From the NCBI RefSeq assembly GCF_029439455.1, contig NZ_JAQFVG010000248.1, positions 36,477 through 100,476 on the forward strand: a DNA stretch of 64,000 nucleotides, read 5' to 3'. Origin of the DNA: Caballeronia sp. BR00000012568055 (GTDB taxonomy: Bacteria; Pseudomonadota; Gammaproteobacteria; Burkholderiales; Burkholderiaceae). This document shows, one piece after another, positions 59,205-62,860 of this stretch; position 1 is the stretch's first letter; the number at the start of each line of letters is the position of its first letter. The notes below the pieces were generated by a model. It made no database searches, was not told the DNA's origin, and worked only from the letters and a program-made list of their open reading frames with translations. The translations under genes and the position numbers were made by a program.

Positions 59205-59277
59205 ACATGATCGACACGATGCCCCTTGCATGCCGACATGCGCGGGGTATCGGCACATTTGCGCGCCTGCAAGCATA

Positions 59278-60030
59278 ATGGCGCGCATGCGAAACACTCT
59301 CGCGCTTGCCGCGCTCCTCTTCGTTTCATCCGCCGCGAGTGCCGCGAATCCCAACGCGCTCTGGCAGATCGTCCACGACTATTGCGAGCCGGCCGCCGAA
59401 GGCGAAGCGGTTCAGCAGAAGTGCGCCGACGTGAATCTCGCGGACGGTTATGCGGTGCTCAAAGACCTCGTAGGCATCGCGCAATATCTGTTGATTCCGA
59501 CCGCGCGCGTGAGCGGCATCGAAAGTCCTTTGTTGCTGGATGCGAACGTGCCGAACTACTGGCGCGCGGCGTGGCAATCACGCACTTATGTCGATGCGAA
59601 ACTCAAGCGCACGCTGCCGCGCGATGAAGTCTCGCTCGCGATCAACTCGGCCAGCGGACGCACGCAGAATCAACTGCATATTCATATCGATTGTCTGGCC
59701 GCGGACGTGGCGCGCACGCTGCGTGAAGTCGGACCGACGATCGGCACAGAATGGAAGCCGCTGCCGGTGCGATTGCGCGGGCATATCTACAGCGCCATGC
59801 GTATCGACGACGCCGACCTCGACCATACCGATCCGTTCAAACTCGTCGCACCGTATGCCGCGCAACGCGGCGAAACGATGGGCGCGCAGACCTTGATGCT
59901 CGTCGGCGCATACCGAAGCGATGGCGCGCCCGCGTTCTATTTGCTCAACGATCACGTTCAGCCGGGAGACTGGGCGTCATCGGAAGAGTTGCAGGATCAC
60001 ACCTGCGCATTGGCCGAACGGCCGAGGTGA
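59278..60030 (+). CDS. cdh: CDP-diacylglycerol pyrophosphatase (Cdh)
   Basis: A 250-residue exported HIT-like hydrolase cleaving CDP-diacylglycerol to CMP and phosphatidate. A signal peptide (MRNTLALAALLFVSSAASA) precedes NALWQIVHDYCEPAAEGEAV, GYAVLKDLVGIAQYLLIPTARVSGIESPLLL and SLAINSASGRTQNQLHIHIDC, where the HIHID histidines are the catalytic set. The exact ATG (59278 or 59287) is open. Confidence 0.92.
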   Translation: MARMRNTLALAALLFVSSAASAANPNALWQIVHDYCEPAAEGEAVQQKCADVNLADGYAVLKDLVGIAQYLLIPTARVSGIESPLLLDANVPNYWRAAWQSRTYVDAKLKRTLPRDEVSLAINSASGRTQNQLHIHIDCLAADVARTLREVGPTIGTEWKPLPVRLRGHIYSAMRIDDADLDHTDPFKLVAPYAAQRGETMGAQTLMLVGAYRSDGAPAFYLLNDHVQPGDWASSEELQDHTCALAERPR

Positions 60031-60149
60031 TAAATCTCGTGGCTTGTTGAAGAATGAAATGACACGAACGGTTCGGAGTTCGGATGAAAAAACATTCGAA
60101 TTTCAGAGTTTTCGGAACTTGTCACTTCACTTTTTGGCGACCACAATGA

Positions 60150-60551
60150 ATGCACATCTACATCACGTTTGATCCGGTGAAGGACGCGGTGAATCGCGCT
60201 CAGCATGGCATATCGCTAGGCGTTGCGCGCGAGATCGCATGGGACGACGCCGTCTGTTGGGACGATGAGCGTCAAGATTATGGCGAGGTTCGAGAAGTGG
60301 GTTTGGGCCCACTTCAGGGCCGGACTTTTTGCGTGGTTTTCACGCGCAGGAATGATGCGCTGCGCATTATCAGTTTGCGTCGCGCGAATGACAGGGAGAA
60401 GAATCAATATGAACGAAGCATGGTGGAACTACGAACCGGGCTCGCCGGAGGAAGAAGCGGCGATCCAACGCGGCATAGCGATGGACCCCGACACATACGA
60501 CCTTTCCGATCCGAACATCGTGCTAAAACCCTTCCGCCGGTGGAGGACTGA
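60150..60551 (+). CDS. brnT: BrnT-family ribonuclease toxin, copy 1
   Basis: A 133-residue protein. The first 88 residues are a normal BrnT RelE-like toxin: ITFDPVKDAVNRAQHGISLG, FCVVFTRRNDALRIISLRRANDREKNQYE. BrnT cuts mRNA and is held by BrnA. The frame does not stop there but runs 45 residues further, overlapping the antitoxin gene for 143 bases. The ATG is offset by 4 bases from an upstream ATG (60146) that opens an 8-codon frame. Confidence 0.82.
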   Translation: MHIYITFDPVKDAVNRAQHGISLGVAREIAWDDAVCWDDERQDYGEVREVGLGPLQGRTFCVVFTRRNDALRIISLRRANDREKNQYERSMVELRTGLAGGRSGDPTRHSDGPRHIRPFRSEHRAKTLPPVED

Positions 60552-60585
60552 TCTACCGGGCTGCGAGGTCGAAGAGGGAGGCTGA
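60409..60585 (+). CDS. BrnA-like antitoxin lacking its DNA-binding half, copy 1
   Basis: A 58-residue protein: MNEAWWNYEPGSPEEEAAIQ, then RGIAMDPDTYDLSDPNIVLK. The EEEAxIxRGIxxDPxTY start matches the N-terminal, toxin-binding part of BrnA antitoxins, which normally continue into a ribbon-helix-helix domain to about 90-100 residues. That domain is missing here. It starts inside the toxin frame and has the same length as copy 2. Confidence 0.68.
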   Translation: MNEAWWNYEPGSPEEEAAIQRGIAMDPDTYDLSDPNIVLKPFRRWRTDLPGCEVEEGG

Positions 60586-60722
60586 AACTCGCGCATTAGC
60601 CATTCGGTCTAGGTGTAAAACAGAGTGGTTTGCTGAAGAATGAAGTGGCGGAAATATTTCGGATGACGAAGGTTATTCGATTAATTCGGCGTCTTCAATT
60701 CATTCTTCGGCGACCACAATGA

Positions 60723-61127
60723 ATGCACATCGAGATAACGTTTGATCCGGTTAAAGACGCGATGAATCGTATCCAGCATGGCTTCCCACTTGATCTCGCC
60801 CGCGAGATCAAGTGGAATGAACTCATGTATTGGGTGGATGAACGTCGCGATTATGGTGAGGTCCGGGAAGTCGGCTACGTGCCGTTTCTGGACACTATTT
60901 TTTGCGTGGTATTCACGCGTAGACATACCGCGCTGCGCATTATCAGCTTGCGTCGCGCGAACGACAGAGAGAAAAATCGCTATGCACGAAATCTGGAAAA
61001 ACATTCAGCCCAACTCGCCCGAGGAAGAAGCCCGAATCCAACGGGGAATCGACATGGACCCGACAACCTACGTCCTTACCGACGAGGAGTTCCAGCAACT
61101 AAGGCCATTCCGGATTCGACCGAGTGA
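60723..61127 (+). CDS. brnT: BrnT-family ribonuclease toxin, copy 2
   Basis: A 134-residue BrnT protein (EITFDPVKDAMNRIQHGFPL; FCVVFTRRHTALRIISLRRA; NDREKNRYA). As in copy 1, the frame runs on past the usual end, here 45 residues (NLEKHSAQLARGRSPNPTGN and so on) across 146 bases of the antitoxin gene. Residues common to both extensions (GRS, PT, GP, RP) hint that the extra frame is kept, though this may only reflect constraint on the antitoxin frame. Confidence 0.82.
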   Translation: MHIEITFDPVKDAMNRIQHGFPLDLAREIKWNELMYWVDERRDYGEVREVGYVPFLDTIFCVVFTRRHTALRIISLRRANDREKNRYARNLEKHSAQLARGRSPNPTGNRHGPDNLRPYRRGVPATKAIPDSTE

Positions 61128-61158
61128 GGCTTTCGACGTGTTTCCCGAAACGAGTTAG
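60982..61158 (+). CDS. BrnA-like antitoxin lacking its DNA-binding half, copy 2
   Basis: A 58-residue protein: MHEIWKNIQPNSPEEEARIQ, RGIDMDPTTYVLTDEEFQQL, RPFRIRPSEAFDVFPETS. The LTDEEFQQLRPF segment is a good match to BrnA just before its ribbon-helix-helix domain, which is again absent. Its start lies inside the toxin frame. The stop overlaps the stop of the convergent hypothetical gene by 4 bases. Confidence 0.7.
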   Translation: MHEIWKNIQPNSPEEEARIQRGIDMDPTTYVLTDEEFQQLRPFRIRPSEAFDVFPETS

Positions 61159-61469
61159 GACGCGGCACGTACCGCCGTCCGGTGCGGAAACACCCGAGGC
61201 ATCACACAATCGACGTGTGCCTCGGGCAGCACGCGCCTCAACGTGCGTAACGTAAAAGCCACGTCCTCCGTTGCAACGTCGAATTCGAGGCGCAGCGCGC
61301 AAGCTTCGCGCTGCGCCGCGCTGACATATAGACCGAGTGGCGAGTGGAACAATTGGCGCATGCGTTCTTGCAAGATATCGTCGTCGGCGAATTGGGCGCG
61401 GGCGAGCATGCGCACGCGCTGACAAGCGCCGTGATGATGACCTGCAGCCCAGGCGAGTGACATATCCAT
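61155..61469 (-). CDS. Conserved hypothetical protein
   Basis: A 104-residue protein (MDMSLAWAAGHHHGACQRVR... LPEAHVDCVMPRVFPHRTAV). AAGGAG 7 bases before ATG 61469 supports this start over the longer frame to 61505. Histidines and two cysteines could bind metal, but I recognise no family. It converges with the second antitoxin gene. Confidence 0.6.
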   Translation of the reverse strand: MDMSLAWAAGHHHGACQRVRMLARAQFADDDILQERMRQLFHSPLGLYVSAAQREACALRLEFDVATEDVAFTLRTLRRVLPEAHVDCVMPRVFPHRTAVRAAS

Positions 61470-61585
61470 GATCGTGCTCCTTCTCGTTGTTCTGAAGGAA
61501 AGCATAAGCCGCGCCGAATCAAGGCCCCGCTAAGACTGGCGTCACGCGTATAAAAAACGCGTTAATCCTGGCGTGACACGCAGTG

Positions 61586-62860
61586 TCAATCGAACCCCGG
61601 AAAAACCGCATCGTCCGGACCGATCGACGCAGGCGATTTCCACGTTGCATCGCGCATCGAATGGCCGACCTGATGCTCGACGCCCAGCAGTGTCGCGAAG
61701 ATTGCCATGCGAACTGCAATGCCGTTGTCGGTTTGCCGAAAGATTGCGAGGCGCGAGTCGTGGTTGAGGTCGGTGGCGAGATCGTTCGCGCCGGGGCGGC
61801 TGTCGCGTGGCAGCGGGTGCATGATCATGGTATCGCGTCCGCAGACTTCGTCAACGAGCGCCTGATTGATCTGGAAGTCCGGCGTATAGCCTTCGATCGA
61901 CTCGTCGGCGAATCGCTCTTTCTGGATGCGCGTGGCGTAGACCACATCGGCGCCCGCGAGTCCTGCACGCAGGTCGGTGGTTTGTTCGATCACGTGATCG
62001 CCATGTGCGAGGCGATCGATAATGTACGACGGCATTTCCAGCGAGCGCGGCGACACGAGCGTGAATTTGAGGCCCTTGTATAGCGACAGCAACTTGGCGA
62101 GCGAATGCACCGTGCGACCGTATTTCAGATCACCGACCATCGCGATATGCGCGCCATCGACGATCTTGCCGAGCCGCGAAAACTCGCGCTGAATGGTGTA
62201 GAGATCGAGCAGCGCCTGACTCGGGTGTTCGCCGGGACCATCTCCCGCGTTGATCACGGGAATGTTGGTCGCGCGCGCGAATTCGGCTAGCGAACCTTGC
62301 TCGGGATGCCGCACGACAATGGCGTCCGCATAACCGCTGATTACGCGGCTGGTGTCGTAGATGGATTCGCCTTTTGCCATCGACGAGAAGGTGAAGCCGG
62401 TTGTGTCGCAGACCGAACCGCCGAGGCGGCAGAACGCGGAGCCGAAGCTCACGCGCGTACGCGTACTCGCTTCGAAAAAGAGATTGGCGAGCACCGCGCC
62501 TTCGAGCACGCGCGTAATTTTCCGGCGACGCGCGATGGGTTGCATCATGTCTGCGGTGCGGAACAGCGCTTCGGCGGAATCACGCGAGAACTGGTCGATG
62601 GAGATCAGTTGCGGCCGGCCTTCGAATTCGATCGGATGATATACGCTCTGCGTAGCGCCTTCGCCAGCGGGCATGCCGTTGAGGATTTCGCCGACATACC
62701 GCGCCGCGATTTCCGGCATCGCGCGGGATTCGGGCGAATCGTCCGGCAAGAGCCACGTGTCGAGCGCACGCCGCGTTACGCCGATGCGAGAAGCGAACGC
62801 ATCGCGGGTCATGTTCAGACGCCGCATGGCGTCGCGAAGGACGGTTTGTTGTTGGCTCAT
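61586..62860 (-). CDS. pyrB: Aspartate carbamoyltransferase with N-terminal helix-turn-helix domain
   Basis: A 424-residue protein. Residues about 5-60 (VLRDAMRRLNMTRDAFASRIGVTRRALDTWLLP) look like an XRE-type helix-turn-helix. Residues from about 80 form a complete ATCase: carbamoyl-phosphate motif STRTR (132-136), SGYADAIVVRHPEQGSLAEF, PGEHPSQALLDLYT, MVGDLKYGRTVHSLAKLL and HPLPR. Typical catalytic chains are about 310 residues, so the extra 75-80 residues are a real addition, seen in some Burkholderiaceae. It is probably a second ATCase beside the main pyrB of the genome, and it could regulate DNA. Confidence 0.9.
   Translation of the reverse strand: MSQQQTVLRDAMRRLNMTRDAFASRIGVTRRALDTWLLPDDSPESRAMPEIAARYVGEILNGMPAGEGATQSVYHPIEFEGRPQLISIDQFSRDSAEALFRTADMMQPIARRRKITRVLEGAVLANLFFEASTRTRVSFGSAFCRLGGSVCDTTGFTFSSMAKGESIYDTSRVISGYADAIVVRHPEQGSLAEFARATNIPVINAGDGPGEHPSQALLDLYTIQREFSRLGKIVDGAHIAMVGDLKYGRTVHSLAKLLSLYKGLKFTLVSPRSLEMPSYIIDRLAHGDHVIEQTTDLRAGLAGADVVYATRIQKERFADESIEGYTPDFQINQALVDEVCGRDTMIMHPLPRDSRPGANDLATDLNHDSRLAIFRQTDNGIAVRMAIFATLLGVEHQVGHSMRDATWKSPASIGPDDAVFPGFD

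Follow-up and report, generated by a model that had tools for sequence, protein, structure and literature searches.

What becomes of a type II toxin-antitoxin module without autorepression at the DNA level is a good open question, and the locus described here raises it in two consecutive copies. In the BrnTA system of Brucella abortus, according to the accessible text of two reports (PMC11980606, PMC10714953), the antitoxin BrnA carries a C-terminal ribbon-helix-helix (RHH) and controls its own operon. Within the window, i.e., the whole analyzed stretch of 64,000 nucleotides from Caballeronia sp. BR00000012568055, two BrnT toxin frames are each overlapped by the gene of a short antitoxin. The initial annotation had proposed two BrnT genes with two 58-residue partners, and all of these elements were confirmed at their positions by Pfam and by the reading frames. 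The locus comprises the following features:

59230..60030, plus strand: cdh, CDP-diacylglycerol pyrophosphatase gene, upstream flank and marker of the place (Pfam CDH, 8.9e-82)
60039..60144, plus strand: long imperfect hairpin 1, filling the cdh-brnT1 gap (fold z -4.26; stability reached by none of 200 shuffles)
60119..60147, plus strand: promoter-like TTGTCA-N17-CACAAT, a consensus match and no proof of function
60150..60551, plus strand: BrnT1 toxin frame, 133 aa (Pfam BrnT_toxin at residues 7-83, 68.9 bits, cut-off 34.5)
60393..60398, plus strand: AGGGAG, Shine-Dalgarno-like, of antitoxin 1 (computed anti-SD duplex -8.2 kcal/mol)
60409..60585, plus strand: short antitoxin 1, 58 aa, with a BrnA-like N-terminal segment and without RHH
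60625..60717, plus strand: long hairpin 2, 5' of brnT2 (fold z -6.58)
60723..61127, plus strand: BrnT2 toxin frame, 134 aa (Pfam BrnT_toxin at residues 7-83, 53.9 bits, cut-off 34.5)
60966..60971, plus strand: AGAGAG, Shine-Dalgarno-like, of antitoxin 2 (computed anti-SD duplex -3.6 kcal/mol)
60982..61158, plus strand: short antitoxin 2 (AT2), 58 aa, with a BrnA-like N-terminal segment and without RHH
61155..61505, minus strand: downstream convergent frame of 116 aa without assigned function, between brnTA and pyrB
61586..62860, minus strand: pyrB, aspartate carbamoyltransferase gene, second marker of the place

Toxin frames and short antitoxins

Both window toxins score above the curated cut-off of PF04365 (BrnT toxin), and the test for the BrnT fold was positive as well. 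The two units represent a diverged tandem duplication (75% identity over 300 nt, 573 bp apart). Tandem copies of the module were also found in the genomes G035 (L033) and G023 (L025); in the BrnT tree, each copy of one genome groups with its counterpart in the other. At a contig end, the window genome carries a further locus (L003, G000:C112) with a cut-off BrnT piece and an 85-aa RHH antitoxin (PF14384, 4.2e-20).

The window BrnT frames continue 50-51 codons beyond the Pfam end, and the far end of the BrnT1 frame is an out-of-frame reading of the antitoxin 1 gene. An overrun of about 45 codons past the normal end had been noticed before; it is real, with a surplus of about 42 codons, since 15 of the 25 units with short antitoxins found within the genus (short units, see below) stop 6-9 codons after the domain. 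The further claim that this extension defines the layout of the module was not sustained. Extensions of at least 36 codons also occur with RHH antitoxins (4/4), are found in only 6 of the 25 short units, and appear at chance-level frequency. A functional extension, e.g., a coupled toxin-antitoxin layout, could appeal to the frame being open over at least 36 codons in 11 of the 30 loci next to cdh, including both window units and all four RHH loci, with 7.4 expected. Without the RHH loci, however, 7 extensions were seen versus 6.5 expected (26 loci, including G044), the expectation being calculated with random synonymous codons given the residues of each antitoxin, and most of the extension is of low confidence in the AlphaFold model. 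On the basis of this control a functional role was rejected as extremely improbable, and the extension most plausibly represents a GC-rich gene read out of frame.

The initial annotation had further held that the antitoxins keep the N-terminal segment of BrnA and lack the RHH, and both points were borne out. AT2 shares 64% identity over 33 residues with one RHH orthologue (E 1e-14, a single comparison), and we infer that the N-terminal segment common to short antitoxin and BrnA represents the toxin-binding part. Two tested RHH antitoxins of the orthologous place matched BrnA_antitoxin PF14384 at ~3e-22, unlike the two window antitoxins, three other short ones, and the partner in G044, for which no match was obtained at E up to 1. 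With the limits applied, no NCBIfam, PADLOC family, or PHROG was matched by the window antitoxins, any Pfam match stayed below the respective cut-off (best for AT2: DUF7883, E 0.22, 11.9 bits, cut-off 27), and a single-sequence protein search with AT2 returned AT2 itself as sole match. Judged by sequence only, the features of a DNA-binding, autoregulating antitoxin were not found, with the RHH lacking and the operator-like palindrome TGTANNTACA (see below) absent in 25/25 short units. The short antitoxin should consequently neither dimerise nor bind DNA via an RHH.

A frameshift or premature stop ahead of a hidden RHH was rejected, as the short antitoxin genes leave hardly any space up to their downstream neighbour. 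In 18 of the 25 short units 3-13 nt separate the stops of the antitoxin gene and the convergent gene, and in window unit 2 the two overlap by 4 nt. Of the other six short units, four precede a further unit or antitoxin match, and in two the distance is 48 and 68 nt. Purifying selection acts on both genes: nine hand-picked, pooled pairs of loci with short antitoxins gave dN/dS values of 0.19 (BrnT) and 0.155 (antitoxin), with G023/G035 used twice, once per copy. Within the antitoxin the same pairs gave 0.068 for the conserved core and 0.32 for the tail, and nine columns are invariant among 24 aligned sequences. The low dN/dS in toxin, antitoxin, and core shows the short antitoxin to be maintained as a protein. 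The identical length of the two window antitoxins had been taken as an argument against random decay; random decay can indeed be dismissed (22 of 58 genomes, core dN/dS of 0.068), whereas the equal length of 58 aa looks coincidental, since the 25 short units span 47-61 aa.

Lys16 and His17 are reported to be important for the RNase activity and toxicity of BrnT. Mapping of the BrnT columns showed that 22 of 24 short units retain the histidine and that 22 of 24 have glutamine in place of the lysine. Of the RHH-type BrnT elsewhere in the genus, 28 of 54 likewise lack the catalytic lysine; its loss is not specific to short units and was rejected as a sign of detoxification.

Chromosomal place and ancestry

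The initial annotation had suggested searching for other BrnT genes with 58-residue partners, and this search showed that the layout is no local oddity. Among 58 Caballeronia genomes, 43 had a BrnT match, amounting to 93 matches in total. Toxin and partner were read at 92 of them, the one left out being a near-identical second copy in G051. Of these loci, 25 have a short partner, 65 have an RHH-type motif in the partner, and two are without recognisable partner. The 25 short units (partner of 47-61 aa, without RHH) are distributed over 22 of the 58 genomes; they do not include the two loci without recognisable partner, the broken module of G003 and G009:C616, the partner frame of which belongs to another BrnA type and stops at 60 aa. 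Wherever they were named, among 120 of 529 matches listed, short antitoxins were called “hypothetical proteins”.

All 25 short units occupy the same place, with cdh adjoining, the 116-aa frame on the opposite side, and pyrB next to it wherever the stored sequence reaches. Four further genomes have an RHH partner of 89-91 aa beside cdh (G051, G001, G014, and G053); pyrB is also present in G051 and G001, and the stored flanks of G014 and G053 showed cdh only. The partner beside cdh in G044 has 91 aa, shares 42% identity with the RHH form in a gapless alignment, and matches no Pfam family. The remaining units with recognisable partner have RHH-type motifs and no adjoining cdh. In a BrnT search of 398 genomes of the family, every match of at least 69% identity among those listed was a short unit of the cdh place; the other matches listed had at most 63% identity, including the short units of G038 (62%) and G026 (61%). 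Plasmid origin of the module was rejected, with the short antitoxin of G024 as query yielding no match in the plasmid collection.

The 116-aa frame follows all 25 short units as well as the unit of G044, and the stored flanks of the four RHH loci did not show it. At L101 (G054) and L103 (G056), brnTA is deleted between cdh and this frame. As it is retained in both genomes after the deletion, the frame is not tied to the module. In the G054 relic a hairpin of reduced stability remains, together with what looks by eye like part of the antitoxin end. In several genomes of 3.5-5.1 Mb (G003, G005, G015, G026, G044, and G050), the cdh match is in pieces or has internal stops; these are perhaps reduced symbiont genomes. 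One stop each was seen in the cdh match of G039 and G049.

Since four RHH-bearing BrnA and the diverged RHH of G044 also adjoin cdh, a single loss of the RHH is probable, with the short form retained since. In the tree of the flanking genes, rooted with the RHH loci, G044 branches first (support 90), followed by all short loci together with the broken G003, an order that fits a single RHH loss. In the BrnT tree a branch (97/94) sets the RHH units apart, and the long G044 branch stays unplaced; a single origin of the short form was recovered in 46% of the bootstrap trees. The initial annotation had named homologues continuing into an RHH, with a frameshift or stop here, as evidence against its reading. 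Such RHH homologues do exist at the orthologous place; they likely represent the ancestral form, and no local frameshift is involved.

Operator-like palindrome and upstream hairpin

In RHH units elsewhere in the genus, the palindrome TGTANNTACA was found within 60 nt 5' of the toxin ATG in 24 of 50 cases exactly and in 39 of 50 with up to one mismatch, compared with a shuffled expectation of 0.11 exact sites and 3.3 with up to one mismatch. In 20 of the 24 exact cases the site continues into TACAAT, which resembles a -10 box and is located near the ATG; two exact copies 34-35 bp apart were noticed in 5 of the 50 units. Three of the four RHH orthologues beside cdh also have the exact site, the brnT start of the fourth (G053) being unreadable. 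Based on its place and symmetry, we infer that TGTANNTACA is the BrnA operator. Neither an exact site nor one with a single mismatch was detected in any of the 25 short units, and G044 has none. The totals of RHH units vary (56, 51, 50, and 40) with the exclusion of loci lacking a clear ATG, sufficient upstream sequence, or an antitoxin start at the standard offset.

Promoter-like sites differ in their spacing. In 21 of the 25 short units 1-2 nt separate the best site, which is of the TTG-N17-ACAAT type, from the toxin ATG; in the window, the -10 box of the site at 60119..60147 ends 2 nt before the ATG of brnT1, and TGTANNTACA is absent there. In RHH units elsewhere (e.g., L047 and L071), the distance from a -10-like box to the ATG is 3-7 nt in 31 of 51 cases (a set including the broken G003 locus), a spacing that would fit leaderless toxin messages. 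Window unit 2 has no site of the TTG-N17-ACAAT type and may depend on transcription from unit 1. As the sole plus-strand promoter-like site falls within the 3' arm of the hairpin, the module's own transcript might lack the hairpin.

The gap between cdh and brnT of the short loci folds into a hairpin of ~100 nt, which in the window ends 5 nt 5' of the brnT1 start. A fold z below -2 was obtained for 25/25 short units (median -4.2), G044, 1/4 RHH orthologues, and 23/56 other RHH units, and for 4/25 short units with a control stretch inside brnT. With regard to the 23 of 56 other RHH units, a stable upstream fold as such is not exclusive to the short units. The hairpin of the short loci is, however, a single homologous element, because a covariance model matches solely in the gap after cdh. 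This model, R1, was built from alignment A2 of 21 rows, on which the pair counts were made as well; A2 omits G002, G044, G026, unit 2 of G000, and G038, the 26-row alignment A1 having aligned the most diverged rows poorly.

In total 24 of the 58 genomes were matched by R1, namely 21 of the 22 short genomes, the broken G003, G044, and the relic of G054; the short unit of G038 and the four RHH orthologues were not matched. Hairpin 1 scored 90.5 bits as part of the training set and hairpin 2 scored 37 bits outside of it, further matches outside the training set being those of G002, G003, G026, G044, and G054. Weaker matches on the opposite strand represent the same hairpins. With strict filters and E 0.1, no place other than the cdh gap was found in the 58 genomes, and the cdh loci of six genomes outside the clade (L121-L125 and L128, without brnTA) had no hairpin match. 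A repeated mobile element was rejected on these grounds and because the window genome outside the locus yielded four DNA matches only (14-19 nt, E above 1). A known RNA family was likewise rejected, as an Rfam search of 59900-61400 returned only a chance-level match at 61252-61318. Hairpin gain and RHH loss were not one step, because G044 has the hairpin together with a diverged RHH.

Conservation of the pairing was evaluated against substitution nulls, in which the number of substitutions on each branch was kept and their positions were randomised. The observed pairing of 89.0% compares with 68.6% under random placement and 74.1% with site rates kept (reached in 0/300 each), and the mean folding energy of -39 with -25 and -27 in two nulls (60 each). 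Eight pairs changed on both sides versus 3.4 in shuffles (1/500 as high). Slid versions of the structure gave a covariation score of at most 0.075 compared with 0.137, and at most 53.5% paired cells compared with 89.6%; the both-sides count was equalled by one slid version (8 at +2; 7 at -1, versus 8), so this measure is not distinctive there. The covariation term of RNAalifold is small (-0.52 kcal/mol), and the structure was derived from the same sequences that were used to test it. The weakest hairpins are those of the G054 relic (-26.3), where the deletion also removed part of the end of the 3' arm, and of the broken G003 (-25.6), with -31.2 or better elsewhere, including -38.3 in G026 (L030) despite internal stops in its brnT.

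The hairpin likely acts as RNA. Changes from Watson-Crick pairs to G-U outnumber those to A-C by 37:14. As proof of an RNA this asymmetry is weakened by the control with third codon positions of brnT, which are similarly strand-biased (C>T and A>G 114 versus G>A and T>C 69; Fisher p 0.12), a simulation with this bias reaching the observed G-U share in 39 of 500 runs. The computed median opening energy in short units is 14.6 kcal/mol at the toxin start versus 5.6 kcal/mol at the antitoxin start, with the toxin start being harder to open in 25/25. The corresponding values are 4.4 versus 7.6 in RHH orthologues (toxin harder in 1/4) and 11.1 versus 8.4 in other RHH units (30/40). The median Shine-Dalgarno pairing is also stronger at the antitoxin starts (-6.5 versus -4.2). 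Taken together, a message covering the hairpin should translate the antitoxin better than the toxin.

Proposed control and relation to known systems

The genome comparison shows loss of the RHH at a fixed place with both genes conserved, loss of the operator-like site, a conserved hairpin exclusive to this place, and a predicted burial of the toxin start. A reading with slightly better than even chances is that this is a working BrnT module in which autorepression at the DNA level was replaced by control at the RNA level, hiding the toxin start. The short antitoxin would be the toxin-binding N-terminal half of BrnA and should neutralise the BrnT RNase. The common ancestor of the short-form Caballeronia would have lost, at cdh, the RHH half and the probable operator near the -10 box, with the hairpin of ~100 nt between cdh and brnT presumably already present at that time. 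The conserved hairpin 5' of the toxin may then have taken over the control of the module: provided that it is transcribed and acts as RNA, in messages entering from cdh it would bury the weak ribosome site of the toxin and lower toxin translation, while the antitoxin would be translated from its own open site inside the brnT end. With a buried toxin start and an open antitoxin start, an excess of antitoxin would be set by translation and not by autorepression at the DNA level.

A role of the hairpin apart from toxin translation is rather unlikely; it would then act as DNA, in the form of a cruciform or of an operator for some unrelated regulator, or would terminate or stabilise the cdh message. 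The hairpin starts directly after the cdh stop, hosts the promoter-like site in its 3' arm, and gained no RNA proof from the strand test; yet no T run follows it in the sequence, the six cdh loci outside the clade that lack brnTA lack a hairpin match too, and two of the three loci with a broken or missing module (G054 and G003, not G026) have the weakest hairpins. We consider it improbable that the module is decaying, with the BrnA end lost by chance and the frames being relics. Some genomes have indeed lost it (G003 broken, G026 with stops in brnT and a second antitoxin match behind, G054 and G056 with deletions), and glutamine stands at the catalytic lysine position in most short units. Against this, both genes and especially the antitoxin core have low dN/dS values, the short form persists in 22 genomes with nine invariant antitoxin columns, and the lysine is equally missing in many RHH-type BrnT of the genus. 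Regulation in trans, by another DNA-binding BrnA or a third gene, is quite improbable: the window genome does have another BrnTA with an RHH antitoxin at the contig end, but the operator-like palindrome is missing in every short unit, and the neighbouring 116-aa frame stays where brnTA is deleted.

Next to hiding of the toxin start within an otherwise working module, a more far-reaching rewiring, to which we assign a small chance, would have the antitoxin made by default and the toxin only conditionally. With the -10 box this close to the toxin ATG (1-2 nt in 21 of the 25 short units), transcription from the module's own promoter should begin inside codon 2 or 3 of brnT, resulting in an antitoxin-only message. 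The toxin would then come only from read-through transcripts of cdh, the hairpin of which hides the toxin start. If true, the switch would be a change in read-through or in hairpin opening, in place of antitoxin proteolysis and operator release.

Replacement of the control layer is directly testable, because RHH, diverged-RHH, and RHH-less loci adjoin the same gene within one genus. The operator-like site and the upstream hairpin change along the same tree as the RHH state.

Compared with the BrnTA of B. abortus as far as described in the text available, the Caballeronia module is without RHH and operator-like site and has a conserved upstream hairpin. A 2:2 complex is reported for B. abortus, and for BrnT with the short antitoxin a 1:1 stoichiometry would be expected. 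BrnT-BrnA fusions carry an RHH in 31 of 33 cases and an HTH in two, according to the available part of PMC11980606. The nearest case is Aave_1720-Aave_1719 of Acidovorax citrulli, which shares a BrnT-like toxin and an antitoxin with a BrnA-like N-terminus; the antitoxin did not bind the promoter in EMSA (PMC10714953). It differs in having 107 aa and being itself an RNase, and the accessible text of this report mentions neither an upstream hairpin nor loss of an RHH half. In the omega-epsilon-zeta system, toxin and antitoxin play no part in transcriptional control, and in PaaR-PaaA-ParE the PaaA-ParE complex represses partly, with PaaR being needed for full control, as the accessible portions of PMC4803016 and PMC3920265 report. 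Both are regulated by a third protein, whereas no third gene tied to the Caballeronia module was found. The BrnT-like toxin gene also precedes the antitoxin gene in RelS-RelI of Mycobacterium tuberculosis (PMC13284704, available text); RelI differs by a putative HTH and by showing no similarity to known antitoxins in the search reported there. The literature search, with thin coverage of subscription papers, returned no RHH-less BrnA and no such hairpin. Within the literature searched, the Caballeronia short-antitoxin module is a BrnTA variant without match.

With these short forms, a set of likely antitoxins escapes models keyed to the RHH. A few short antitoxins were seen in other genera (e.g., P0056, Pandoraea terrae), several of which resemble truncated RHH forms. 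One further protein of 103 aa (P0040) contains, by eye, two consecutive BrnA-like N-terminal segments and no RHH.
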